Source of the DNA: Phycisphaerae bacterium
Lineage (GTDB): Bacteria > Planctomycetota > Phycisphaerae > Sedimentisphaerales > Anaerohalosphaeraceae
DNA: 32,028 bases
Direction: 5' to 3'
NCBI GenBank assembly: GCA_029858345.1
Contig: JAOUFG010000022.1
Location: 1-32,028, forward strand
Shown here: positions 9,641 through 27,486 of the stretch, one piece after another
Numbering within the stretch: position 1 is the stretch's first letter
Layout of the letters: every line of letters starts with the position of its first letter
Translations under genes and position numbers: made by a program
The notes under the pieces: generated by a model
Told to the model about the DNA's origin: nothing
The model's database searches: none
What the model saw: only the letters and a program-made list of their open reading frames with translations

Positions 9641-12600
9641 TTAATCTGCTGATGCAACGATGGGTTCGGCGGCAGTTTGAGCCGCTTGGATCAACCCAAG
9701 AATATAAGCTCCGATATTCGGGTTTTCGCTTGTTTCAATCGGTCCAAAATACTTGTCCATCACAAGGGCCATCGTATCGCCTACCGGAAGCTTCAGATCA
9801 TTGTCCAGAACAGCAACATAGCTGACGAACGCCTCAATGACTTCATCGGTCATGGCGTATTGCTGATACTGCTCATACTCTTCAGCAGACATCAAAGCCA
9901 GTTGCGGTTCCATCTCTCTGAAGCTTGCAAAGGCTGTTTGGATTGATGCCGACACTTCCGGAGTGAACGGCGCATCCGGAGGAGCCAATTGATTGAATAT
10001 CGCGTTCATCGCAGCCATCATTTCCGGATTGATACCCTTCAGAGCCGCAGCAGCTGTCAGCAGGTTTTCACAGGCATCACACGGCTGCAGGTTCGGGTTG
10101 GTGGCCATGGAGTTGGCGATCAGCAGTTGCAGTTCATCGGAGTTGACAGCCAGTTCAAGTGCAGCCGCTTCCATCACAGCCGGGCACCCTTTCAGTTCCG
10201 GGATTTCCAGCAGCGGCAGCGGAGCCGCGGGAATGGTCGGAGGAGTCGAGGTGTAGGATACCTGGACAGTTCCTTCCCCGTAGACCTTTGTGCGTACTTC
10301 GATATTGGTATAGTCATATTGCCCATCCCAAACATTAATTGTAAATGTTTCATTTTCAGGAGCACCCGGAGCAGGTGTATAAATCCAGACCCATTCAGTG
10401 CCGTTGAACTTAAACTCAAGCTTGCTGCCGCTTGGAAGGGTATAAATGCCCGGAACAATAGACAAGTTATCGAGGATATCCTGTTGCGGAGCATCCAATG
10501 GGTCTGTAACAAAGACCGGTGATGTCACATCGTTTTGCCGGGTAGAATCGCCCGGGGTAACTTCCCCAAGGTCGCCTGCCGCATACGGGATGATATTGGT
10601 AATTTCCATCTTGACCGTACCTTGAACGGGAACAAGAGAATTACTCTGGATTTCTCCATCAACAAATACATAATCACGCTGACCGTCGTATACTGTAATC
10701 TCAAAGCTGTCATTACCAACAAAACCTTCTATTGGCTCATAGGTGTAAGAGTAAGTGCCGTCGCCGTTATCGATCAGGGTTAAATCCCCAAAACCTGGAC
10801 TAGTGGTATCGCTGATACTTAGTGGATCAAGCTCATTGATGGGATTGCCATCCAAATGATCGGTCGCAAAGACCTTGTTTTCGATATTTTCATTCATATG
10901 TTCGATGGTTACAGTACCATCAATCGTCGGCGGGGCATTGGTAATGTCTACAGAAACGGTACCTTGAGCAGAGACGGCCTTTCTGTATATCTCCGACGGT
11001 GCATAAAACTCATAGCCATCCGGAGCCGGTTCTTCGTCGAACCAGTAGTCATATTGTTGACCCAGGTCGCTGGACAGATTCACGGTAAACAGGTCATCAG
11101 CAACATATCCACCCTGGCCGTAGTCGTCATTGTCATCACCAACATAACCCGGCAGCGTTGGGTCTGTGCTGTAGGTCCAGGTGTCGCCGTCATACACAAG
11201 CGTTCCGCCATAGTTGTCGCTGCCAATCACAGAACCGGTATATGTGTCACTGCTGACATTAACGCCGGCCCCAAAATCAACTTCAAGGTCCTGGGGACCA
11301 ACATCCTGAGAATCCATATGAACCTGACCGAACCATGCATCGCCTTCCGGCAGTTCATTGGTCAGTTCAAGGTCAATCGTACCGGAACCATAGACATTGG
11401 TTGCCGTGTCAACAACCCAAACACCATCAACCTGTTTGAACGTATAATCAATTTGTCCATCCCAGAGTTGTACGTCAAAGTCATCTTCGCCAACATAACC
11501 TGGAATATCTGTGTCGGCGCTGTAGTTATATGTATCCCCAGCAGCATAAGGATCTTTAGTACCATTGTAGTCCAGTGTTTCGCCAAAGGCCTTGTTTTCA
11601 TCATCGGTAGCAGGGGTGATATCAGTAATCGCAAAATCATCCCCGTCGCTATCAGTGAAAGTGCCGCTGTCAACAGCCAGTTCTTCGTCAACAGCATTCA
11701 TCGGGGCATCTTCGAGGACGACGGCGCCAGTTGGCACTTCATTTGTCACCTCGAGGTCAATCGTACCGGAACCATAAACTGCTTCACTGCTGCCATCTGT
11801 GTAATAGGTACGCTGTCCGTCCCAGAGTTGGGCGTCAAAATCATCTTCACCGGTGTAACCGGGTAATGCTCCATCGGCGGTGTAATCATACGTACCGTCA
11901 ACATCATCATTGTAAGGATCATTGGTACCGTTATACACCAGAGTACCGCCGAATGTTTTGTTGTCGTCGTCATCGGCCTTGGTGATTCCGGCAATGATGA
12001 AATCGTCTTCAGCATCTGTGAAACTGCCGCTGTCAACACTTAGTTCTTCATCGACAGCATCCATATGTGCATCGTCCAATATAACTGCGCCACTCGGCAA
12101 CGTGTTGGTAACTGTTACATCGAGGTTTTCGGTTTGCTTAACAACAACAGCTTGATCATCGACAATACTGCTATCTGTGACGCTGTAGCCGAACGTGGTC
12201 GATTCGCCGCCCGGAGTGACATAGCCATCATATGGAGTGTAGGTGATGGTATCACCGGAGATTTCCAGAGGATCCGGAAGACCGCCGGGATTTGTATCCG
12301 TCAGGATCGAACCGCCGCTGACCGGGGTCTGCCCTTCAACGATACCGTATGTCAAATCACCGTAGGTACCAACGAAATTGTCAGGATCTAACAATTCTCC
12401 AGGTGTGCCGTCCGGATCGGTTACTAAGCTGGACAGATCGAAGTCGGCACTCGTGTTCATATGGATTGTATCGCTGTCAGGAGCCAGGATTGGCACCTGG
12501 TTTTGAACGGTAATTGTCACGAGTGCAGATTCCGGCGAGAGATAAGTACTGCCGTCTTCCGTGGTGATTTCCACCTGGTAGTAAAACGTATCAGTGAAAG

Positions 12601-15220
12601 TAGCATACTGGCTTGAGCCGTCCCAGTAGAATACGGTGTCATTATCATAAGACGGCGGAATATACACGAGTGTATCGCCAACAACTGTTACCGTACCCTT
12701 GGCACTTCCATCAGGTATTATTGTGATAGAAGTTATGGTGACATTATCCGGGAGTGTATCATTGTCCAGCACCAAAAGGGAATCCGGGTTGAAATTGATA
12801 CTGTCGATTGTATAACCGGTGCGCCAGTTAATTGTGTCCGCATCAGGCAGCAAAGCAAAGATAACTTGTATTTCATTGGCACAATTCAGGCAACTGCCGT
12901 CTCGGGTAATATCGATATCGAGCAGTGTGCGAGTGCCCTTGATTAACTTATCGTACATCGGACTTGAACCATCTGAAAGTGGTTCTTCCGGGTCGATTTC
13001 GTATTCAGCATTCTCATGCGTGTAACCTGAATCGGCAGATACGGGATCATTCTTCGTGTATTTAATATCCTTAGCAAGAGACTCTACGCTCCCGTCCAGG
13101 TTAATCTCAGAACCGTAAATCCTGATCGTAGCATCTGCTTTTGCTACCTCGGGATCGGCTGAGGTTTTGGCATCAGCCTGAATGATCTTACTAGCGCCGA
13201 AGACCGTAACGGTCCCTTCGTAATAACGAGGATCGCCCGGTTCATACTGATTATTTGTACCGGCACCGATCCAAACAGCAGCGTCGGTCTGGCCAGCGCT
13301 TTCAGCTTCGGAAAAGACCTTGCCGTCAATATAGACATCGCCGTCAGCAATCAGGCAGGCAAAGGACTTGGCAGGTTCATTGTCAGGAGTAGAAGTCGTA
13401 TTTGTTTTTGCATGAACAGCTCCTCCCAGACTTGACTCGCCGTTTATGGTTAAATCACCCGCGGATTTAACATAAACAGAACTATATCGTCTGCCCTCAG
13501 CGTTGAGGTGCTGAACAGTTATATCGAAATCGTCAGGTGTCAGGTCCGGGTTTTCGTCTCCGTAATCAATGGTTACCTCGTTGCCATTAATTGTCAAGAG
13601 TCTGAGATGGGCCTCGTCACCAACAGCATTTTCGAAACCGATCTGCAAGGCGCCCATGTCGATTCCACCGCTGCCGGCTTCGATAATAATGTCGCCTTTG
13701 GCAGTCTTTATATTGTAGGGAGACTTGCCGGTTTTGGGTGCTATAACGGCGCCATCATAGTCGGGTGAATCCCCATGAGTGCTGGCATAGAGTTCAACAC
13801 TGCCATCCCCTTCAAAATTAATACTGCTGCCAGCCTTGAATTCGATGTTGTGATCAGCTTCAACGATCAGTGAATTGTTCGATGTTTCGCTGGCTCCACT
13901 GTGAAGCTCTCTGTCGTAATCAAAAATGATGTCGCCATTCTGTCCATCTGCAGGCGGAGTACCAAGAGTGGACAAGGTGACATTAGAATTATCCAAGTAA
14001 GTTTCCAAATCATCGACATCTAACTGGGAAACGGACGCGTCATTAGTCGGTTTCCATGTTTCCGCGGGATCTTCTGTTACATCAATGGTAACATCATCCA
14101 CAATCCAGAGATCAAGCGGATCAATGAGAAATGTCCCGTTTTGTGTGCCCGTCAGGTCGATGCTGCCCATGGTTTCGACGTATTGTTTACCGGAAAGTTC
14201 AAAGAAACCGCCATTGCCGGATTCAATGCCGCCTTTGGCCTCGACCAAAGCGCCTTTACGGAACAGAGCAGAGTCAGGTGAGTAAACGATAATGTCACCA
14301 CCATCCCCATTGTCTCCGGCATTAGCAGAGGTTATACTGTTTTCGCCGAGAACAACAACATCCGCGGCGGTTAAAGTAATTTGGCCGCCATCGCCTTCGA
14401 TGCCGTCGACAGATGCTGTTCCAAACTGACCAACCCGCCCCGTGCCGGACTCAACCTGCAGCGGAATGGAGTAAATGTCACCTGCGGCCAAGATAATCTT
14501 TCCTTCTGGCACTTCAATTTCACCAGTGTTGGTAACGCTTCCCTCGTCGATTCCGGTCATTTCAACGATAATTTTGCCGCCCGGGTCGCCAAGATAGATG
14601 CTGTCACCGGCCGCCATGACCACAACGCCACCTGAAGGAAGCGAAACAGTGCCGTCATTTAGAACGGTTTTGCCCAGAAACGCCACTTGGTCGGTTACAT
14701 TCTCGATAGTCGCATAATTCGTTACATCACCCACAATGCCTCCTTCAAACGGCACGAATTTATAGATACCGTTGGTAAAATCGTCATTGGTGATGTTCAG
14801 GCCCGCTGCGGTGAAAGCGGATGCGGTAATCGATGCATTGGGACCCACAATAACGCCGTTGGGACTAACGATGAATATATTCTTTCCTAAGGCATCTAAG
14901 ACGCCGTTGAAAACTGCCTGTTCGGAGCCATTAACACGGTTCAGCAAATAACTGCCGGCACCTGCAACTGCAAGCGTATCGATCGCTTTTCCGGCACCAA
15001 TATCCATCTTTGTCCAGTCTAAAACAGCATGATTACTGATCAAGTCAACCGAAACGGTATTACCTGAGCCAGTGAGACCTGCTGAACCGGCAGACTGAGT
15101 TATGGTCGTATCACCCATTTCAAGTGCCCAGACGGGCATGTTTACAATGCAGAATGCAAGGATGCATGCAAGCGATTTGTGCGCAATACGTACGAACGGA
15201 TTGTGTGCAAGAGTTTTCAT
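9641..15220 (-). CDS. TpsA: filamentous haemagglutinin-type exoprotein with tandem Ig/cadherin-like repeats
   Basis: This 1859-residue secreted adhesin is the cargo of the upstream TpsB. Residues 1-33 form a signal peptide ending VWALE. The haemagglutination-activity (TPS) domain follows to about residue 350, with hallmark segments SYLLNRVNGSEQAVFNGVL and NIFIVSPNGVIVGP. A GTFLIDPLDLWIVDD segment near 370 is common in FhaB-like proteins. Beta-helix-like sequence continues to about 850. About six Asp/Gly-rich repeats of 115-140 residues follow (roughly residues 900-1640), each ending WDGQ-Y..GxGTxxxxxTN and many containing a His-Met-Asp/Asn start. The last 190 residues form an Ala/Glu-rich helical domain with a CPxxxE and a CDAC pair. 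GAGGGA precedes the ATG. It lies 46 bases after tpsB. Confidence 0.9.
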   Translation of the reverse strand: MKTLAHNPFVRIAHKSLACILAFCIVNMPVWALEMGDTTITQSAGSAGLTGSGNTVSVDLISNHAVLDWTKMDIGAGKAIDTLAVAGAGSYLLNRVNGSEQAVFNGVLDALGKNIFIVSPNGVIVGPNASITASAFTAAGLNITNDDFTNGIYKFVPFEGGIVGDVTNYATIENVTDQVAFLGKTVLNDGTVSLPSGGVVVMAAGDSIYLGDPGGKIIVEMTGIDEGSVTNTGEIEVPEGKIILAAGDIYSIPLQVESGTGRVGQFGTASVDGIEGDGGQITLTAADVVVLGENSITSANAGDNGDGGDIIVYSPDSALFRKGALVEAKGGIESGNGGFFELSGKQYVETMGSIDLTGTQNGTFLIDPLDLWIVDDVTIDVTEDPAETWKPTNDASVSQLDVDDLETYLDNSNVTLSTLGTPPADGQNGDIIFDYDRELHSGASETSNNSLIVEADHNIEFKAGSSINFEGDGSVELYASTHGDSPDYDGAVIAPKTGKSPYNIKTAKGDIIIEAGSGGIDMGALQIGFENAVGDEAHLRLLTINGNEVTIDYGDENPDLTPDDFDITVQHLNAEGRRYSSVYVKSAGDLTINGESSLGGAVHAKTNTTSTPDNEPAKSFACLIADGDVYIDGKVFSEAESAGQTDAAVWIGAGTNNQYEPGDPRYYEGTVTVFGASKIIQADAKTSADPEVAKADATIRIYGSEINLDGSVESLAKDIKYTKNDPVSADSGYTHENAEYEIDPEEPLSDGSSPMYDKLIKGTRTLLDIDITRDGSCLNCANEIQVIFALLPDADTINWRTGYTIDSINFNPDSLLVLDNDTLPDNVTITSITIIPDGSAKGTVTVVGDTLVYIPPSYDNDTVFYWDGSSQYATFTDTFYYQVEITTEDGSTYLSPESALVTITVQNQVPILAPDSDTIHMNTSADFDLSSLVTDPDGTPGELLDPDNFVGTYGDLTYGIVEGQTPVSGGSILTDTNPGGLPDPLEISGDTITYTPYDGYVTPGGESTTFGYSVTDSSIVDDQAVVVKQTENLDVTVTNTLPSGAVILDDAHMDAVDEELSVDSGSFTDAEDDFIIAGITKADDDDNKTFGGTLVYNGTNDPYNDDVDGTYDYTADGALPGYTGEDDFDAQLWDGQRTYYTDGSSEAVYGSGTIDLEVTNEVPTGAVVLEDAPMNAVDEELAVDSGTFTDSDGDDFAITDITPATDDENKAFGETLDYNGTKDPYAAGDTYNYSADTDIPGYVGEDDFDVQLWDGQIDYTFKQVDGVWVVDTATNVYGSGTIDLELTNELPEGDAWFGQVHMDSQDVGPQDLEVDFGAGVNVSSDTYTGSVIGSDNYGGTLVYDGDTWTYSTDPTLPGYVGDDNDDYGQGGYVADDLFTVNLSSDLGQQYDYWFDEEPAPDGYEFYAPSEIYRKAVSAQGTVSVDITNAPPTIDGTVTIEHMNENIENKVFATDHLDGNPINELDPLSISDTTSPGFGDLTLIDNGDGTYSYTYEPIEGFVGNDSFEITVYDGQRDYVFVDGEIQSNSLVPVQGTVKMEITNIIPYAAGDLGEVTPGDSTRQNDVTSPVFVTDPLDAPQQDILDNLSIVPGIYTLPSGSKLEFKFNGTEWVWIYTPAPGAPENETFTINVWDGQYDYTNIEVRTKVYGEGTVQVSYTSTPPTIPAAPLPLLEIPELKGCPAVMEAAALELAVNSDELQLLIANSMATNPNLQPCDACENLLTAAAALKGINPEMMAAMNAIFNQLAPPDAPFTPEVSASIQTAFASFREMEPQLALMSAEEYEQYQQYAMTDEVIEAFVSYVAVLDNDLKLPVGDTMALVMDKYFGPIETSENPNIGAYILGLIQAAQTAAEPIVASAD
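10250..12500 (-). repeat. Tandem intragenic repeats encoding VCBS/cadherin-like domains in tpsA
   Basis: Units are recognised by codons for His-Met-Asp/Asn or equivalent near 12458, 12060, 11700, 11317 and 10897, spaced about 360-420 bases, with a more diverged unit near 10550. The two units starting near 12060 and 11700 are the most alike (both AVDEEL-VDSG-FTD, then YNGT-DPY, then GEDDFD-QLWDGQ), pointing to the most recent duplication. The repeats make this region prone to recombination and copy-number change. Confidence 0.7.
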
Positions 15221-15266
15221 TTTTTATCCCTCGAATATTAAATTTTAGTTTTTTCTTATCCGGTTT

Positions 15267-17150
15267 CTACCACCTTAGTAAAAACCCCGCATGTACCCGG
15301 CCCTTGCCGGAACGTGTATCGTCAGTTGGGATCAAAGGATACCCATAATAGACTGTACCTGTAAAGTTGTCTCCCAGTTCGGTAATAATCCCGCCGCCCA
15401 CCGAACAAAGTTCCTCATCGGTATCTTCAGTAGCCGTCGCATCTTTGATGCGAGCCATCCCGTAATCCAGAAAAGCCAGCGGAGCCAGTTTTTTCAGGAA
15501 CGGTTTACGCTCTTTTTCGTCCACTTCCTGTCCAAAGAGTTCAATTTGACCTTTTCTGACAAGGTCATATTCATACTGCAAAGAACCAATCAGTCCGCCG
15601 TCGGCAACGATTTCGGACTCGTCGTATCCACGAATTGTGTACATCCCGCCGAACGAGGTCATCTTCGAAGGTACCAGGCGGTCGTCCGAGGTAATAAACC
15701 GGAAACTGGCGGACGCACGCTGGATTTTATCGACGTCCAGATAGCGGCTGTGCCGTGCGTTAAAATAATAAACGTGGAAACGGTCATCAACAGTTCCCGA
15801 TCCTCGAGCTAAAGTCATTTCCGCCTGGTCAGAGCTGTTAAAGGGACTGAGCATACTGAAACCCAGGAACGTATCCGTCATGTCAGTTGTTTTATATAAG
15901 TCCGCACCCACACCCCAGAGAGCCATGTGGATATTCGAATCGAAGTCGGGGAAAGGTAAATCGGGAGATGACTTACTTTCTTCATATTGAATCGTACCTG
16001 TTACATCGAAAAACCAGTCATCCAACTGCACGGCGTTATACCGCAGGGTACCGCCCGCAAATTTACCGGATCCCAGGAAATTAATGTCAGGATCGGTGAT
16101 GTCGAATTCATTATAACCGGCAAACAAATTCAGCCGCAGTTTGGGCCCGGCGATGGGGAAGTCATAGGCGCCATAAACGGCGTATGCGTCATCCCATGTC
16201 GAATCGGGCGTGGTCTGGTAAATTGCGGTAAACTTATCATCAAAACCCAGCAGGTTCGTGTTGATCAGGCCAAATCGGGGCCGCCATTGTATATCTTTCG
16301 TGCCGGAATTATCGACCTGGATGAAATAATGCCAGGGATTCGCCTCGTACACATTATATTTGACGGCCAGCGTGTCGGGTTCGGTGCCTTTTGAAACAAC
16401 CGCAGACACATACCGGTCTGGATTCAGGTTCAGCAAATTGATATAGTCATCCAGCTTCTTGCGGTTCATCACCCGGCCCTCTTTAACAGGGGACCAGCCA
16501 AGAAGGGCGTTAGGATCTAAATAGCCATCCTCAACCGACTGATTATTGGGATCGTAATAAGCCGAAGAGACATTCGACACGGCCGCTTCAAGAACGCGAA
16601 TGGGCAGGGTGCCCTGTTCCAGAGCTCCACCCGTCTCAAGTGCCTGACCGGGCATATAAATATATATTCCTGCATAATGTTTGTTCTGGTAAAGCGAAAG
16701 AAGATATCGAAGAAATCCGTCGATGCTTCGTGCCGAAACCGATTGTTCTGTCCCGGGCACCGCCGCGATTGCTTTAATGCCGCGCAGATCAAACAGATTG
16801 GCCGATTCGATGGAACCGTCTTTAGCCGTGTTAAAGATATCAGGCATCTTTGCCAAAAGCTGCTCATCGGTAAACAAGGTATTCCCACTGAATGCGATTT
16901 GGCTAATCGTGTAGCGGGGCGTTGTATCCTCGGGCAGATTCTCAACGGCTACCTTCTCCGGAACGGGAACAGATTCGTCTGTGATGACCGCCTGTTCCTG
17001 GGCCTCTTTGGCTTCGAGGGCTTGCTGCTCTTCCGTTTTAGAAGCAGGCAGTTTGGCTGCCGTGACGACGACAGAGATACTGCTTGCCATAACCAGAGCG
17101 GCAATAAACATTGTCCCTAACGATTTGTTTGTACTGTTAGTTCTAAGCAT
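15267..17150 (-). CDS. TpsB: two-partner secretion outer-membrane transporter (ShlB/FhaC/HecB family)
   Basis: TpsB proteins form a beta-barrel pore in the outer membrane that exports the partner TpsA. I choose the ATG at 17150 because a strong AGGAGG lies seven bases before it; this gives 628 residues with a signal peptide (hydrophobic at about 12-31). An acidic linker is followed by two POTRA-like domains (about residues 75-260, the first starting YTISQIAFSGNTLFTDEQLL). The barrel occupies the rest and shows the Omp85-superfamily loop-6 motif in FGGMYTIRGYDE and a downstream FLDYGMA, matching FxDxG. It ends in an aromatic residue (LLRW), as expected of barrels. It is co-transcribed with tpsA, which begins 46 bases later, from a good sigma-70 promoter at 17301-17329. 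Confidence 0.9.
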   Translation of the reverse strand: MLRTNSTNKSLGTMFIAALVMASSISVVVTAAKLPASKTEEQQALEAKEAQEQAVITDESVPVPEKVAVENLPEDTTPRYTISQIAFSGNTLFTDEQLLAKMPDIFNTAKDGSIESANLFDLRGIKAIAAVPGTEQSVSARSIDGFLRYLLSLYQNKHYAGIYIYMPGQALETGGALEQGTLPIRVLEAAVSNVSSAYYDPNNQSVEDGYLDPNALLGWSPVKEGRVMNRKKLDDYINLLNLNPDRYVSAVVSKGTEPDTLAVKYNVYEANPWHYFIQVDNSGTKDIQWRPRFGLINTNLLGFDDKFTAIYQTTPDSTWDDAYAVYGAYDFPIAGPKLRLNLFAGYNEFDITDPDINFLGSGKFAGGTLRYNAVQLDDWFFDVTGTIQYEESKSSPDLPFPDFDSNIHMALWGVGADLYKTTDMTDTFLGFSMLSPFNSSDQAEMTLARGSGTVDDRFHVYYFNARHSRYLDVDKIQRASASFRFITSDDRLVPSKMTSFGGMYTIRGYDESEIVADGGLIGSLQYEYDLVRKGQIELFGQEVDEKERKPFLKKLAPLAFLDYGMARIKDATATEDTDEELCSVGGGIITELGDNFTGTVYYGYPLIPTDDTRSGKGRVHAGFLLRW

Positions 17151-17300
17151 TTTGGCCTCCTGTGATTCCATTCTTTCGTTGAACATTTTTCTTGTCAAAC
17201 TTCCGGCCTCTGGGGGCGTTCGTTTTCTCTGTCAGATGTTTTGCCAAATGACCAGTATTTAATATACCTGCTCCCCCGGAAAATGCAATCTTATTTCGCT

Positions 17301-20867: not shown

Positions 20868-20889
20868 GATTCAAATGGGTTTTTGAATC
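20868..20889. terminator. Hairpin overlapping the convergent 3' ends of mdh and the cyclotransferase fusion
   Basis: GATTCAAA (20868-20875) pairs perfectly with TTTGAATC (20882-20889) around a 6-base loop. It starts two bases after the mdh stop and includes the last codons of the opposite gene. No T tract follows, so it is at best a weak terminator or a transcript-end structure. Confidence 0.35.
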
Positions 20890-22823
20890 GGGAAAGGCGG
20901 CCGCTGAGGTTCGCCTTTTTCAATGCGCTGATTAAACAGGCGGATCTGCAGGTCAACGGCCCCCAGTGCCCAATCGATATAGTGCCGTTTGTGATAAGGT
21001 CTGTTATGGGCCTCGTGCATCAGGCCATCGTAGATTGCGTCGAGAAAACGTCCCTTGGTGGTCCGCGCGATGGGTGTCGGGTTAGCGGCCCATTCCTTGA
21101 GTTCTTCGTATTCATTACGAAGTCGCCGGCTGGCGGCAAGTTGATCGGTTGTTAGATAATCCGCCGGATTCATCGCGATTTGAAGTCCTTTCAATGCCAT
21201 GATCAGCGGTTCATAATTCGCCCGTTTTTCAAGACGGATAAATTTATATTGGTGAATAAATACGGGTTTTTTGGTGTCCTTGTTTTCGTATAAATCGCTG
21301 GACAAATGCGGTTTGCGTTTACTGGTTCTGGCGAATACCAGTTCTTCACCGTACTTACTCCGTTCAATTTCATCATTAAACAATCGTGAAATCCACAATT
21401 TTCCCGAGCGGGTGGTTTCGGTGCCTCCGCCCAGAACAAAGAGGCATTTGACAAAGCTCAACGGCAGCACATTTTGTCTGCCAATTTGACTTCGTCGAAG
21501 CTGGAAGGATAAATGGAGACTGTGTGGATTGATCGGAAAAAATGATGTGATTTCGCGGATGATCTGATTGAGGACCCATGGGTCGGCTGTGGAGGGCTTT
21601 GAGATTTCGCCCAACGTGTTTAGCCGTCCGGGCGCCAGTTCGAGAAATCCGCGGCAGTTTTTAGCATTGGTGACGGAATGATCATCGATATAGCTTCCCA
21701 GCTTCCACCCAAGGATGTCCAGGGCAAAATCCCCGAAATAACGAAAACCGTCAAAGAGCGGATCTTGATTGGCAGTTGAATTGTGGATGGCTCGATGCCC
21801 CACATTGCTCAATTCCACTTCAGTGCCCAAGGGGACCAGGCCGGGCTGAAAGTTGTTACGGATAATCTGGAGGTTGGCCTGGACCACACGCGGGTCGAAT
21901 GCATTTTCGGCGGCCGCGACGGCATATTTGACATAATCAATCAGGTCAAATGATGAGCCGGCGGGCATGGTTTCCAGTCCCCGTTGTAAAATCAGGTCGA
22001 CCGAGGAATGATTGGAGTTAATGATTCGAAGCGCAATCAGTAAGCTCAAATGACGCGTGTAATAGCGTTGATTCGGGCAAAAACGATCCAGTTCAAAGCG
22101 AAAGCGGCCATAGATCATCGACTCGAAGTGATTTAGCAGTGACTGCTTGATCAGCAGGGCCAGATAGTTTTCAAAATACGGTTCTGCTTGTTGGTTTCCG
22201 TGGAGATGCTTAAAAGACGGACAGGGGCGGTTCAGTTCGTGTTCTAAAAAATAGTCGCTGACGGCGTCATGTCCCAGGTGGCTGATAACCAGATCCCGTT
22301 CCGTTGTTCCAAGCAGTTCGCGGCGGGCACGGCGCTCAATATCCGCATCCATGGATACTTCGCCGGGGCGAGTATGCCGATGAAAGAATTTTTCGATACG
22401 CTTGCGTAACCATAATTCGTGGATCAGATTCACATGAAAACGGTCCCCGAATCGCTGCCGCATCGATTTAGGGCTGGCCAGATAGGCCTGGGCCTGTGTG
22501 ATTCCATTGGCGGTATGGACGTTGACGGTTTCACGGTCGTAGAGCCTGCCTTCATATTTGTCAATGACCTGCATGGCTGACGGCGGCACATCATAGACAA
22601 CAAACCCTTCTACTTTTGCGGTCGAATCGGGAATGGCATAAAAATACACATTATCCGGGCTGACCCGGCGGTGGCCGGACAGCATTGCTAATTCCGCATA
22701 CAGTACGTTCTCGGGTTTTGAACCTGACGGTTTCAGGGAAAAACTGTATCCGCAGACGGACTCAAAAATAGAGGGGTCACGAAGGGAACCGTAGATAAAC
22801 AAATTGACGGATTTGTCATTCAT
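20871..22823 (-). CDS. Gamma-glutamylcyclotransferase-like domain fused to a putative glutamate-cysteine ligase/amidoligase-fold domain
   Basis: The 650-residue protein has two parts. Residues 1-120 are a gamma-glutamylcyclotransferase (AIG2/GGACT-like) domain: YGSLR at 11-15 and the catalytic-type Glu91 in DKYEGRLYDRETVNV. Such domains release gamma-glutamyl groups as 5-oxoproline. Residues about 200-610 show a pattern I read as the glutamine-synthetase/GCS-amidoligase fold: GTEVEL with Glu335 and Glu337, GFLELAPGR at 392-400, H434-S-L-H437-L-S439, and IRLEKR with Arg530, Glu532 and Arg534. Enzymes of that fold form amide bonds with glutamate-type carboxylates. The second assignment is motif-based and uncertain. 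It lies 42 bases after alanine racemase, probably in one operon. Confidence 0.65.
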   Translation of the reverse strand: MNDKSVNLFIYGSLRDPSIFESVCGYSFSLKPSGSKPENVLYAELAMLSGHRRVSPDNVYFYAIPDSTAKVEGFVVYDVPPSAMQVIDKYEGRLYDRETVNVHTANGITQAQAYLASPKSMRQRFGDRFHVNLIHELWLRKRIEKFFHRHTRPGEVSMDADIERRARRELLGTTERDLVISHLGHDAVSDYFLEHELNRPCPSFKHLHGNQQAEPYFENYLALLIKQSLLNHFESMIYGRFRFELDRFCPNQRYYTRHLSLLIALRIINSNHSSVDLILQRGLETMPAGSSFDLIDYVKYAVAAAENAFDPRVVQANLQIIRNNFQPGLVPLGTEVELSNVGHRAIHNSTANQDPLFDGFRYFGDFALDILGWKLGSYIDDHSVTNAKNCRGFLELAPGRLNTLGEISKPSTADPWVLNQIIREITSFFPINPHSLHLSFQLRRSQIGRQNVLPLSFVKCLFVLGGGTETTRSGKLWISRLFNDEIERSKYGEELVFARTSKRKPHLSSDLYENKDTKKPVFIHQYKFIRLEKRANYEPLIMALKGLQIAMNPADYLTTDQLAASRRLRNEYEELKEWAANPTPIARTTKGRFLDAIYDGLMHEAHNRPYHKRHYIDWALGAVDLQIRLFNQRIEKGEPQRPPFPIQKPI

Positions 22824-22865: not shown

Positions 22866-24014
22866 TCAATGAACGATTCGATTGACATGTGCATGGACCA
22901 ATGTCAGGATTTCATAGCAAATCGTGTCGGCCATATCCGCAAGCGCGTATGCCGAGCAGGGCGAATCATGATCATTATCCAGGACGATCGCCATTTGACC
23001 TAATTGTACATTCGGAATGTCGGTTACGTCCAGAATGACCTGATCCATGCAGACTCTGCCAATGACGGGGACAAATTGATTTCCGATTTTCATTTTAGCC
23101 GTATTGGAAAAACAGCGGCGATAACCATCAGCGTATCCCAAAGGCACGATCGCGGCGATGGTGCCTCGCTGCGTGGTAAAGGATTGACCATAACTTACCG
23201 TGTGACCTGCGGGGATGGATTTTATTTGCGTAATTGGGGCCATCAATTTCATTACTGGGGTCAGTTCGATTGGAGGATTCTGCATTCGGCGTGAATAATA
23301 ACCGTACATGGAGATCCCGCAGCGAACCATATCATAGTGGGCCCGGGGCATTTTAATGGTTGCGGCACTGTTGGCGGCGTGGATCAGGATGCGGCGGTCT
23401 TTAAGCCGGTGTTCGTTTAGAAAGCGTTCAAAGTTATCCTGCTGTTCGTATGCATAGGACAGGTCCTCTTCGTCTGCGGTGGCAAAATGGGTATAGACAC
23501 CCGCCAGTTCAAGATTGGGACATGCGTCGATCTGTTCGAGCAGTTGTTGAGCCAGTTCGGGCTCAATGCCGCACCGCCCCATCCCCGTTTCGATATTCAG
23601 GTGGACCTTCAACACGCCGGATGTGCTTTGGAGGGATTCGCGGACATATTTGAGTGAATCCAGAGAGGCCAGCACGCAGTGGAACCCTTTTTGGGCGCAG
23701 GCCTGGATTTCCTGAACGGACTGTGAAGGATTCAGCGGTTCCAGAATAAAAATCATTTGCCCCTGAACCATGGTGGAAATATGCAGGGCCTCATAAAAGG
23801 TGGCCACCGCAAATGCGTCAACACCGTCGCGCACCAGAATATTGACAATCTCGGTGATGCCGTGTCCGTAAGCGTTGGCCTTGACGACGGCACAGAATTT
23901 TGTTTGTTTGGGGCAAAGCCCTTTCAGTTTGCGGACATTGCTCAGCAGCTCCCGGGAATAGATGTGGGCCTGCAGGTCCGGACGAATATATTGTTGTGTG
24001 CGATAAACTCTCAT
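22866..24014 (-). CDS. alr: Alanine racemase
   Basis: Interconverts L- and D-alanine, supplying D-Ala for peptidoglycan. At 382 residues it has the normal length and order: an N-terminal alpha/beta barrel with the PLP lysine Lys45 in AVVKANAYGHG, the METGMGRCG-like IETGMGRCGI at 141-150, the HFATADEED loop, and HAANSAA at 212-218. The C-terminal beta domain carries the catalytic tyrosine Tyr275 in HTVSYGQSF and RVCMDQ at 320-325. Its ATG overlaps the stop of the glycosyltransferase upstream by four bases (ATGA), and there is no clear ribosome binding site, suggesting translational coupling. It is followed after 42 bases by the cyclotransferase fusion. Confidence 0.95.
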   Translation of the reverse strand: MRVYRTQQYIRPDLQAHIYSRELLSNVRKLKGLCPKQTKFCAVVKANAYGHGITEIVNILVRDGVDAFAVATFYEALHISTMVQGQMIFILEPLNPSQSVQEIQACAQKGFHCVLASLDSLKYVRESLQSTSGVLKVHLNIETGMGRCGIEPELAQQLLEQIDACPNLELAGVYTHFATADEEDLSYAYEQQDNFERFLNEHRLKDRRILIHAANSAATIKMPRAHYDMVRCGISMYGYYSRRMQNPPIELTPVMKLMAPITQIKSIPAGHTVSYGQSFTTQRGTIAAIVPLGYADGYRRCFSNTAKMKIGNQFVPVIGRVCMDQVILDVTDIPNVQLGQMAIVLDNDHDSPCSAYALADMADTICYEILTLVHAHVNRIVH

Positions 24015-24742
24015 GAGGATGTTAAGATTTCTTTTCGCAGTTTAAGAAGTTCTTTGAATGCCCGCAGAATCACTTTGATATTTGCCCCCGTTTGCTGTCC
24101 GGCCAGACGCGGATAGTGATGGACGCCGGTTTGGGCAATCGTATATCCTTTTCGCTGGGCGCGGGCCAGAATTTCCGTATCGATCAGGGCACCGGTACTG
24201 TGCATTTCGATATGGTCGAAGATGTCGCGTTTATAAAGCTTAAAGGCACAGTCGATATCTTTCAGCTTTAGGTTAAAAAGAAAACAAACCAGTTTTGTCC
24301 AGCAAAAGGCGTTTATCTTTCGGACCATGTTATCCTGCCTGCGGATACGGTATGCGCTGACAATATCAGACTCTTTAATGAGCGGCAACAAATTCGGCAG
24401 CTCAGCAATGTCGAATTGCCCGTCGCCATCGGTATAAAAAACATATTCTTTTGTCGCGGCCCGAAACCCGCTCTGCAGAGCGGCGCCGTACCCTTTGTTC
24501 TGTGTGTGATGAATCACACGCACTGCTGGATAGTCTTTTGCCAATTGGTCCGCCATCTCGGCAGTGCCGTCGGAACTGCCGTCATTGACCAGAATGATTT
24601 CGTAGTCAGCACAGATTCCGGCGATCACCGAAAGGGCTTTTTCCGTGAGTGAACGAACAGAGTCCTTTTCGTTGTAGCAGGGAAAAAACACACTCAACGA
24701 GTTGATTTTAAAGGGTTGGGCTGGATCGGTGCGTTCTTCCAT
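24011..24742 (-). CDS. Family 2 glycosyltransferase (polyprenyl-phosphate mannosyl/glucosyltransferase-like)
   Basis: The 243-residue cytoplasmic GT-A enzyme resembles DPM1-type transferases that move a sugar from a nucleotide onto a polyprenyl phosphate. It shows FFPCYNEKDSV at 19-29, the nucleotide-binding VNDGSSDGT at 52-60, NKGYGAALQSGF at 82-93, the metal-binding TDGDGQFD at 104-111 and an acceptor-site SAYRIRRQDNMVRK segment. There is no C-terminal membrane anchor. It begins three bases after the upstream ORF ends and overlaps alr by four bases, so it is embedded in a tight operon. The multi-pass membrane protein upstream could be a GT-C-type enzyme that uses its lipid-linked product; this is inference. 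Confidence 0.88.
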   Translation of the reverse strand: MEERTDPAQPFKINSLSVFFPCYNEKDSVRSLTEKALSVIAGICADYEIILVNDGSSDGTAEMADQLAKDYPAVRVIHHTQNKGYGAALQSGFRAATKEYVFYTDGDGQFDIAELPNLLPLIKESDIVSAYRIRRQDNMVRKINAFCWTKLVCFLFNLKLKDIDCAFKLYKRDIFDHIEMHSTGALIDTEILARAQRKGYTIAQTGVHHYPRLAGQQTGANIKVILRAFKELLKLRKEILTSS

Positions 24743-24745
24743 GTC

Positions 24746-25639
24746 TTACCATATCCCCTCGGCACTGATCTGCTCCAATTCACTTTGAAACTGTTTGGCT
24801 TGATCCATGTATTCCCCTGCATCGGGACGAACTCTGGCCAGAAAACGCGCTGCAATGATTGCGCTCTTCAGCCGCAGTCCAAAACCGTCTGTTTTGCGGT
24901 AGGCCTCTTTGTTTTTTTGCAGGCCGTCAAGATACTGCTGGAAAAACTCAGCGATCTTCTCACGGAAGGTTGGAATTCCCGAAAATCGAATCAATGTGGA
25001 TGCAGCGGTCGGAGAGAGTTGCTCCTCGAATGCACCGGAGACCAGATCGTACAGTTCCTTAAACCGATTGCTGTCCTTGGTTTCAATGATGACCGTCGCG
25101 GTTGTTAACTGTTTGGAAAACGCATCCGGAAACGCCGCGGTATCTGCCAGGATACGTTCGATGAGGGCCTTGCCCTGCGGGGTATCCGTATCGACAAGCA
25201 GGTGCTGGGTATCGTCAATGTAGGCCGTTTTCCAATTATCGAGTTGTTTCAATGCTCTCATAAATGTCGAATTCGATTGTGTTTGCGGCATCAGCACGAC
25301 CCAGACATCGCGTTCTTTAAGCTGCGTATCGATCCATTGGCCGGAATCTTTAAGGATTTCTGAGGTAATTTTTTTTCCTTTAATCTGTGCCTGCTGGACC
25401 GCTGGGCCGCCGGAATGAATCAGTTGCCAGAGGCGAAATGTTTCATGGTTATAAGCGGCTTGGGCACGGCCGTCCATGAACAGCTTTAAGGGAACTTGGC
25501 CGGTTTCAGGATCCGGTTTTTGTCCAAAGGCGATCGCGCCGCCTTCGGTCCAATAATTAAAGACACGCCCGCGGATGTCGTTATCATTGATAAAATCACA
25601 CACCTCGAAGGGTTTCAGATGAGATGCTGTCATTCGCAT
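24746..25639 (-). CDS. C-terminal extracytoplasmic part of a frameshifted multi-pass membrane protein
   Basis: This 297-residue ORF has no membrane span or signal peptide, yet starts with sequence (FINDNDIRGRVFNYWTEGGAI, then LKLFMDGRAQAAYN) that usually forms the soluble C-terminal domain of GT-C-like membrane proteins. Reading its frame upstream past the apparent ATG gives plausible protein, DPWPTDARYYSVFMRMTASH, overlapping the end of the 618-residue ORF. One missing base near 25679-25680 explains the break. If expressed separately, it could start at the ATG at 25633, which overlaps the upstream stop (ATGA), or at 25639. The rest is helical and of unknown function. It is three bases from the glycosyltransferase start. 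Confidence 0.6.
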   Translation of the reverse strand: MRMTASHLKPFEVCDFINDNDIRGRVFNYWTEGGAIAFGQKPDPETGQVPLKLFMDGRAQAAYNHETFRLWQLIHSGGPAVQQAQIKGKKITSEILKDSGQWIDTQLKERDVWVVLMPQTQSNSTFMRALKQLDNWKTAYIDDTQHLLVDTDTPQGKALIERILADTAAFPDAFSKQLTTATVIIETKDSNRFKELYDLVSGAFEEQLSPTAASTLIRFSGIPTFREKIAEFFQQYLDGLQKNKEAYRKTDGFGLRLKSAIIAARFLARVRPDAGEYMDQAKQFQSELEQISAEGIW

Positions 25640-27486
25640 AAAGACGCTGTAGTAACGAGCATCCGTCGGCCAGGGATCAAGATAAATGCGTTATATTTCA
25701 TGCCCCAGAAGGTCCCGAGGCCCAGAACGACGAATAGTGTTCCGATACGCACAGTCTTCAGGACTGCTGGTGGCCAGAAAATCGGACGCAACGGGCCTTC
25801 TGTTTTCCATGAAAACCGTGCACTGAACATCTGCCAGCCTTGCAGCAGCATCAGGAAAACCGCCGGCGCGGCTGCCGAACCGGCAATGGCGATAAAACGG
25901 CGTGACCGGATGGCCATATACATACTTAGCAATGATATAATGAGTATGGCCAAGTCGATTTTGGGCCATTGGAATCCATCAACCGGCGTTTGATCTCGCT
26001 GTTTCTTTCGGTTGCCCTTGGTCGTTGGCCGTGGCTTGAGAAAATGTCCAATTAGCCAGAACAGCATTGCGACGCCAGTCAGAACGCACAGGACTGCAAA
26101 CGCTTCCTCGCTGCCGACTGGATTGGGCTTTGTGCTTGTTTTATCCATCCAGTCAAATGCCGGTTTCCACTCATTGACCTGCCGCCATGATTCGGCGTGC
26201 TTGCTGACGCTGATCTCAAAGGTGTGCGTCAGATTGGTCAGGTGAAACGGGTTAAAAACGATCATGGCGATAAATGAGACGATGCTGGCACCAACAGTAT
26301 GATAAATCCCTTTGGCCGAAAGGGCAACAAACCGCTCTTTCTTAAGGGCCAGGGCAAGAATGAGCAGGCAGCCGATGATTGCAACAAACAGAAACGTTAT
26401 CTGTGAGGAGAAGACGAAATGGCTGTAAATTTCCTTGAAGTGCGGCGATAATCGGCTGGGGATCTCGGCCAGGAAAAATCGGGGCGCCAAGCTGAGAAAA
26501 TAAATGATGCCAACGCCGATATGATAGGCGTAAAACAGCGGGGATTGGACGCTCTTTTGGACTGTCAGTATGACTGAGATAACAGCCAGGATTCCCCAGA
26601 TGATTAATATTTTATCCTTGAACAAGACAGGAACTGAATCCGGTTTGCCGAGCAGTTCCTGGATCTTCAGGTAATTTGTATTGCTGATGAATTTATAGCT
26701 CATCAGGTACATGACCAGCCACAATCCGACGAATCCCAGGCAGACGGACCACCGCCGCGGCAGGCGCAACAGCAGATGAATTCCCACGAACGGTACCAGC
26801 ATAATAAACGCGTAGAGATACCCGCCGTGGACATTGGCCCAAAAAACAATCAGCGGTACGATTAGCCATATCCACCGGTAGTTTTTATAGACCGCCAATG
26901 CCAGCAGGAGGATGAATACCGGCACGAGCAGATTTGAATATCCGGACGGTCGAATATCATAAAATGTTCGGCCGATGACCATCGCGAAACACGCTCCGGC
27001 GGCGGATAAAAAGTCGCCCGCCCCCAGCAGTTTACCGGTTGCATAAACGCATATGACGGCCAGAAAATAGATGCCGAACTTCCAATATACCAGTGTGTTG
27101 TAATTATAGCTGCCGTCTTCGCCGAACCACGATGCCAGTTTGTAGAAGATCAGATGGGTCAGCCAGTTCTGGTTGATCCAACCGGTCGGGTGCCATTTCT
27201 GAATGGTTTTCAGCGAAAACGGCTTACACAGTGTCTGTGCCCACCCCGGCCACTTTTGGATATCTTCTTCCGTCGGCCCGGCATGGTGCGAGTTGAAACT
27301 GAACGGCTCGACCGTATCGACCCCGTGATTGGAAAAATGCCGTCCGCATGCCATCGCGACCCATGTATCGCCCGCCGCAACCATGTGGGTCGAGGCGTAA
27401 AATGCGAACAGCAGCATACCGGCCAAAAGAACACTCTTGAACCAATGATTCGTTCCGCTGTTTTGAGATTGTATTAAATCATTCAT
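25630..27486 (-). CDS. Multi-pass membrane protein, putative GT-C-type glycosyltransferase, 3' end frameshifted
   Basis: The 618-residue product has about a dozen hydrophobic helices. The first periplasmic loop holds an acidic/aromatic pattern (GDTWVAMACGRHF, later TGWINQNWLTHLIFY) and a FYDIRPSGYSNLL segment near 170, all reminiscent of GT-C glycosyltransferases that use lipid-linked sugars. I cannot name the family. A basic loop (KPRPTTKGNRKKQR) should be cytoplasmic. The last 15 or so codons (ending VTTASLCE) read unlike the family, whereas the -1-shifted frame continues as DPWPTDARYYS into the next ORF, so this looks like one gene broken by a one-base deletion or sequencing error. AAGGAG lies 15 bases before the ATG, rather far. 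Confidence 0.65.
   Translation of the reverse strand: MNDLIQSQNSGTNHWFKSVLLAGMLLFAFYASTHMVAAGDTWVAMACGRHFSNHGVDTVEPFSFNSHHAGPTEEDIQKWPGWAQTLCKPFSLKTIQKWHPTGWINQNWLTHLIFYKLASWFGEDGSYNYNTLVYWKFGIYFLAVICVYATGKLLGAGDFLSAAGACFAMVIGRTFYDIRPSGYSNLLVPVFILLLALAVYKNYRWIWLIVPLIVFWANVHGGYLYAFIMLVPFVGIHLLLRLPRRWSVCLGFVGLWLVMYLMSYKFISNTNYLKIQELLGKPDSVPVLFKDKILIIWGILAVISVILTVQKSVQSPLFYAYHIGVGIIYFLSLAPRFFLAEIPSRLSPHFKEIYSHFVFSSQITFLFVAIIGCLLILALALKKERFVALSAKGIYHTVGASIVSFIAMIVFNPFHLTNLTHTFEISVSKHAESWRQVNEWKPAFDWMDKTSTKPNPVGSEEAFAVLCVLTGVAMLFWLIGHFLKPRPTTKGNRKKQRDQTPVDGFQWPKIDLAILIISLLSMYMAIRSRRFIAIAGSAAAPAVFLMLLQGWQMFSARFSWKTEGPLRPIFWPPAVLKTVRIGTLFVVLGLGTFWGMKYNAFILIPGRRMLVTTASLCE

Follow-up and report, generated by a model that had tools for sequence, protein, structure and literature searches.

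The window, that is, the whole 32,028-nucleotide stretch of DNA that was analysed, carries on its reverse strand an open reading frame with an ATG start that occupies exactly positions 20871-22823 and encodes a protein of 650 amino acids. The domains of this protein and the genes that adjoin it are as follows.

20871..22823 (-): 650-aa fused protein with a GGACT domain, a helical middle region and a carboxylate-amine-ligase-fold domain (open reading frame, homologues)
22470..22802 (-): GGACT/AIG2 gamma-glutamyl cyclotransferase domain, residues 8-118 (Pfam PF06094, Foldseek)
22782..22793 (-): YGSL motif for substrate binding, residues 11-14; distant members have YG[ST]L (alignment)
22551..22553 (-): E91, candidate catalytic glutamate of the cyclotransferase (invariant in 66 sequences)
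21849..22463 (-): helical middle region, residues 121-325 (model, alignment)
20904..21848 (-): carboxylate-amine-ligase-fold (GS/GCS/PafA fold) domain, residues 326-640 (AF2 model, Foldseek)
22866..24014 (-): alanine racemase (alr), upstream neighbour in the nearest clade (Pfam/NCBIfam, synteny)
24011..24742 (-): GT2 glycosyltransferase, polyprenyl-phosphate-sugar-synthase-like, order-wide neighbour (Pfam/NCBIfam, synteny)
24746..27486 (-): multi-membrane-span protein, probably GT-C-like (open reading frames, synteny, relatives)

The reading frame was judged to be a real gene because collinear, full-length, single-copy homologues are present in more than 100 genomes and because dN/dS was about 0.04-0.07 (calculated only for pairs with estimable dS, with dS near saturation), values at which the gene appears to be under strong purifying selection. 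Neither a hydrophobic leader nor a membrane span was apparent when the sequence was inspected by eye. Outside residues 8-118 there were no Pfam matches, NCBIfam and PHROGs returned the cyclotransferase and nothing further, and PADLOC found nothing, leaving about 530 residues of a single-copy, conserved protein without Pfam, NCBIfam or PDB annotation. The initial annotation of this region as a cyclotransferase fused to a second domain is upheld by the reading frame, Pfam and the homologues, and its motifs were correctly placed (YGSLR at residues 11-15, E91 as the glutamate of YEG, GTEVEL at 333-338, HSLHLS at 434-439 and IRLEKR at 529-534). A ligase-like domain is likewise present, with limits at about 326-640 rather than the 200-610 originally proposed.

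Identification of the N-terminal domain as a cyclotransferase was confirmed by the match to PF06094 over residues 8-118 (E 9.2e-13, 49.2 bits against a gathering cut-off of 22.8) and by structure, as the full-length model matched 2jqv/2g0q (Foldseek, E 1.3e-5) together with GGCT/GGACT structures. Pfam detected GGACT in 45 of the 46 family members (E<=10). Across the 66 sequences used for all conservation counts, with identities down to 32%, Y11 and G12 of the substrate-binding motif are invariant and position 13 is S or T; E91, also invariant, is the candidate catalytic residue, a role known for this glutamate in the family. By its Pfam score, its YG[ST]L motif and this glutamate, the domain is a member of the GGACT/AIG2-like family, from whose matched solved members, all single-domain or small, it differs in being fused to a ligase-fold domain. 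The stretch that follows, residues 121-211, is the most conserved of the protein (mean modal identity 0.80, versus 0.72 in the ligase part), and residues 121-325, which have no known match, appear from the model to form a separate conserved helical region.

Fold and motifs of the C-terminal domain

The C-terminal domain was modelled with AlphaFold both within the full-length protein (46 sequences, pLDDT 82.9, pTM 0.80) and alone, as residues 318-641 (59 sequences, pLDDT 81.2, pTM 0.85). Against the PDB, the full-length model matched GGACT/GGCT structures first, followed by PafA (prob 0.97) and GshF (0.77), and in a search of a viral model library it matched a phage 'Amidoligase' model (prob 0.94). 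The best Foldseek match of the domain alone was PafA (4bjr, E 4.8e-4, prob 1.00), and further matches were found to Dop (9cku, prob 0.99; 4b0r, 0.95; 7oxy, 0.77), GshF (3ln7, 0.97) and glutamine synthetase (9n4x, 0.51). As the TM-scores of these matches were moderate, at about 0.45, the ligase assignment is a statement made at the level of the fold. At that level the PafA, Dop and GshF matches bear out the initial guess of a GCS/amidoligase-type fold, and the predicted fold of this part of the protein is not unrelated to that of GCS/amidoligases.

Sequence profiles placed the domain in none of the named families. Residues 326-640 (approximately) have no Pfam or NCBIfam match, and a sequence search of the PDB with the ligase profile found nothing. 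The family described in 2008 as 'new CAL' by Iyer et al. is presumably Pfam Amidoligase_2 (PF12224); no match to it was seen at E<=10 in the 46 family members, and hhalign comparisons with 5 and 8 Amidoligase_2 sequences gave probabilities of 2% or less. Against 24 Pup ligases from planctomycetes, hhalign likewise did not reach significance, and Pfam detected neither Pup_ligase (PF03136) in the family members nor GCS2 (PF04107) in the fused protein or the family members. The profile comparisons were also run with a profile of 64-66 sequences reaching down to 32% identity. Because hhalign was non-significant for both Amidoligase_2 and the Pup ligases, membership of either was rejected and no named family is claimed; a profile search against Gcs/amidoligase families, which had been proposed as a check of the original guess, thus produced no Pfam match and no significant hhalign match.

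The motifs considered in the ligase-fold domain are the following.

21813..21827 (-): GxExE on core strand 1 (G333, E335, E337; model, alignment)
21684..21686 (-): D380, acidic residue on core strand 2 (model, alignment)
21639..21641 (-): E395, acidic residue on core strand 3 (model, alignment)
21507..21524 (-): HSLHLS on core strand 4 (H434, H437, S/T439; model, alignment)
21384..21386 (-): R480, arginine in the stretch preceding core strand 5 (model, alignment)
21315..21317 (-): R503, arginine on core strand 5 (model, alignment)
21234..21251 (-): QYKFIR on core strand 6 (Q525, K/R527, R530; model, alignment)

The features of the superfamily as defined in PMC2588565, namely the strand motifs and the helices after strands 3 and 6, map in order onto the predicted strands of the domain (332-338, 378-380, 393-396, 433-441, 498-504 and 521-530), with helices after strands 3 and 6 at residues 415-428 and 538-551, as expected of the six-strand saddle sheet that characterises the superfamily. 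The strand-1 motif GhExE / Ex[EH] is present, G333, E335 and E337 each being found in 65 of 66 sequences and the h position being mostly A, C, I or T; the acidic residues of strands 2 and 3 are D380 and E395 (64/66 each); and the two expected arginines are R503 on strand 5 and R480 in the preceding loop, both invariant. Two motifs deviate. On strand 4, the domain has H437-x-S/T439 against the superfamily's [HD/Q]x[NH], the second position departing from N/H, and an additional invariant H434. On strand 6, Q525-x-K/R527-x2-R530 stands against Ex[RK]x2D (or [QH]x4D), the first two positions fitting and arginine replacing the aspartate. In total, Y11, G12, E91, H434, R480, R503 and R530 are invariant in 66/66 sequences, and G333, E335, E337, D380, E395, H437 and Q525 are kept in at least 64, a level of conservation that, judged from the alignment, far exceeds chance motif matching.

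The prominence of Dop among the best structural matches, together with the deviation of both the strand-4 and strand-6 motifs from canonical ligases, raised the possibility that the domain runs in reverse, hydrolysing an amide or isopeptide in the manner of Dop, such that both domains would break gamma-glutamyl-type bonds. However, the top match is PafA, the forward ligase GshF is matched as well, and PMC2588565 treats the superfamily members that it discusses as ligases. Furthermore, no partner gene resembling Pup was seen, the gaps flanking the fusion gene (42 bp to alr and 4 bp to the convergent mdh) leaving no room for a Pup-like tag gene beside it. A Dop-like reversal is therefore regarded as unlikely.

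It had been proposed that the Glu, His and Arg motifs should recur in close homologues, and they do, in 64-66 of the 66 sequences; the exception is family f111. In its two copies (L172:7816-10050 and L173:3831-6002), several of GxExE, D380, E395 and H437 are lost, yet YG and E91 are intact, which suggests that the ligase domain of these copies is dead and that one activity can occur without the other. This pattern speaks for an alternative in which the ligase-fold domain is a pseudoenzyme that ligates nothing and serves to bind gamma-glutamyl substrates and offer them to the cyclotransferase. This explanation, however, is considered rather improbable, since the other 64 sequences keep the ligase residues at identities down to 34%, which points to catalysis.

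Phyletic range and genomic neighbourhood

Within its own order the fusion was detected in 120 of 161 genomes, with more than 100 of the matches being full length and two (G489 and G490) covering the GGACT part only. All 120 belong to families f1, f7, f3 and f6 (130 genomes), and none of the 31 genomes of families f2, f4 and f5 carries it. A scan of a genome collection identified 139 relatives, of which 80 were kept; apart from one 'uncultured bacterium' record these were from Planctomycetota, mostly Phycisphaerae / Sedimentisphaerales, one being titled Candidatus Kuenenia, and every relative uninterrupted by a contig end had the whole fusion. In a phylum-wide sample of 392 genomes the fusion was found in its own family only, and a class-wide search recovered more distant copies outside the order, in families f108, f111 and f112. 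All 20 out-of-order copies retrieved were full-length fusions with 32-40% identity. Searches of phages, viral contigs and plasmids with the ligase domain or the whole protein found no copy. The survey for the same fusion suggested at the outset thus showed that carriers have a single, collinear copy, both throughout the order and in three more of the class's families.

In its own order, the fusion gene ends a conserved block of the form GT-C-like protein - GT2 - (alr) - fusion, which is often preceded by an aspartate-type aminotransferase gene; in family f7, alr lies outside the block. Such neighbours had initially been taken to point to the envelope, and the arrangement would suit a protein or envelope modifier in which the ligase attaches glutamate or another small tag to a protein, or to a lipid or glycan precursor processed by the adjacent GT2 and GT-C proteins, and the GGACT domain removes it. 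However, families f2 and f4 have the aminotransferase - GT-C - GT2 (- alr) block but no fusion gene with it, the GT-C gene being present in 155 of 161 own-order genomes, and in a GT-C tree built by a quick method the fusion-less entries formed two separate groups. Conversely, in 20 loci read outside the order, none of the GT-C, GT2, alr or aminotransferase genes adjoined the fusion. As operon and fusion each occur in the absence of the other, the case for an envelope role is weak and the functional tie to GT-C, GT2 and alr was downgraded: the linkage to alr and the glycosyltransferases is order-specific, and the block is no evidence of a shared pathway. Given also the apparent lack of a hydrophobic leader or membrane span, a role in modifying proteins or the envelope is thought improbable.

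Several other features of these neighbourhoods were recorded. In relatives, the GT-C-like protein is encoded by one reading frame of about 900-1000 aa, and three relatives had no Pfam match, while in the window it is covered by two overlapping reading frames (618 + 297 aa); this split at 24746-27486 would represent a frameshift, either real or due to assembly error. In L079, L064, L110, L112, L161 and others, the aminotransferase and GT-C genes are separated by genes for an ECF-type sigma factor and for a small membrane protein that may be an anti-sigma factor (clusters 9 and 14, both functions judged by eye). Elsewhere in the window, at 9641-17198 on the reverse strand, there is a two-partner secretion pair consisting of an 1859-aa protein, in which a TPS secretion domain is combined with an Ig/cadherin-like one, and, upstream of it, a 643-aa ShlB/FhaC-type transporter with POTRA.

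Known ligase-cyclotransferase pairs and the proposed function

Pairs of this kind are known as separate genes. In firmicutes, an amidoligase lies beside an Aig2 cyclotransferase (Iyer et al. 2008, PMC2588565), and in Arthrobacter phages AIG2 (gene 97) adjoins an amidoligase (gene 98) (PMC5513430). In four of four clostridial phages, an annotated amidoligase was found to be followed closely by an annotated gamma-glutamyl cyclotransferase. The make/break pairing therefore recurs independently in firmicutes, Arthrobacter phages and these four clostridial phages, and on the strength of these neighbours the window protein was interpreted as a fused version of the recurring pair. The same activity pair, a GCS-type ligase and an Aig2 cyclotransferase, is predicted here, and by inspection the superfamily motifs are shared with 'new CAL'/Amidoligase_2; the window protein differs in being one polypeptide, with GGACT first and a helical region of about 200 aa between the domains, in matching neither PF12224 nor its profile and in having the motifs H-x-S and Q-x-K-x2-R. 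What is new is thus the fusion of a pair known as neighbouring genes, built on a ligase domain recognised by no family model; a literature search found no paper on it. Separately, L122, L123 and L130, from planctomycetes, were seen to encode large proteins that apparently carry a signal peptide and two tandem Amidoligase_2-type domains (the second judged by eye).

PafA and Dop are the best structural matches of the ligase domain, and its glutamine as first polar residue of strand 6, in place of glutamate, is permitted in PafA (Q/H), but PF03136 was not matched, the profile comparison was not significant and no Pup-like gene adjoins the fusion. Pup ligases occur elsewhere in the phylum and are absent from the own-family and own-order genomes listed in the phylum sample. 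With gamma-glutamylcysteine ligase (GCS2, GshF) the domain shares the GS-type fold and the GxExE motif, though not a match to PF04107. As classical GCS2 was matched nowhere in the fusion's own genome and in only one of 40 relatives, ordinary glutathione synthesis via GCS2 is an unlikely context.

The reading somewhat favoured here is that the protein is a soluble bifunctional enzyme in which the ligase and GGACT domains form a make-and-break device for a gamma-glutamyl amide. The C-terminal domain would form a sequence family of its own among the ATP-dependent carboxylate-amine ligases, the superfamily with the glutamine synthetase / gamma-glutamylcysteine ligase / PafA fold. Its substrate carboxylate, most probably the gamma-carboxylate of glutamate, would be activated to an acyl phosphate and coupled to the amine of an acceptor. 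The GGACT domain, with E91 as general acid/base, would then remove the gamma-glutamyl group as 5-oxoproline and free the amine, so that an intermediate might be capped and uncapped or the level of a gamma-glutamyl metabolite controlled. The gene, the cyclotransferase family, the ligase fold at fold level, the motif conservation and the phyletic range were all obtained here. Both activities, their action on the same bond and the direction are inferred, as is the editing or cycling role suggested at the outset. Against a ligase stand the non-significant profiles, the TM-score of about 0.45, the two deviating motifs and the degradation in f111. A more specific form of the make-and-break reading is put forward tentatively: a single-chain cap-and-uncap enzyme, combining ATP-dependent gamma-glutamylation with cyclotransferase release on the same acceptor, that would serve a core function in much of the class and define an undescribed ligase family.

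With the last 315 residues placed in the PafA/GCS fold, both the active site and the reaction of this domain become open to experiment. That the two predicted activities are joined in one chain raises the likelihood that the enzymes of the phage and firmicute pairs likewise act on one bond, and the fusion may point to a gamma-glutamyl metabolite or cap in bacteria that lack classical GCS2. Should the cap-and-uncap form prove true, its core function would extend over much of a planctomycete class in which this enzyme is mostly missing.
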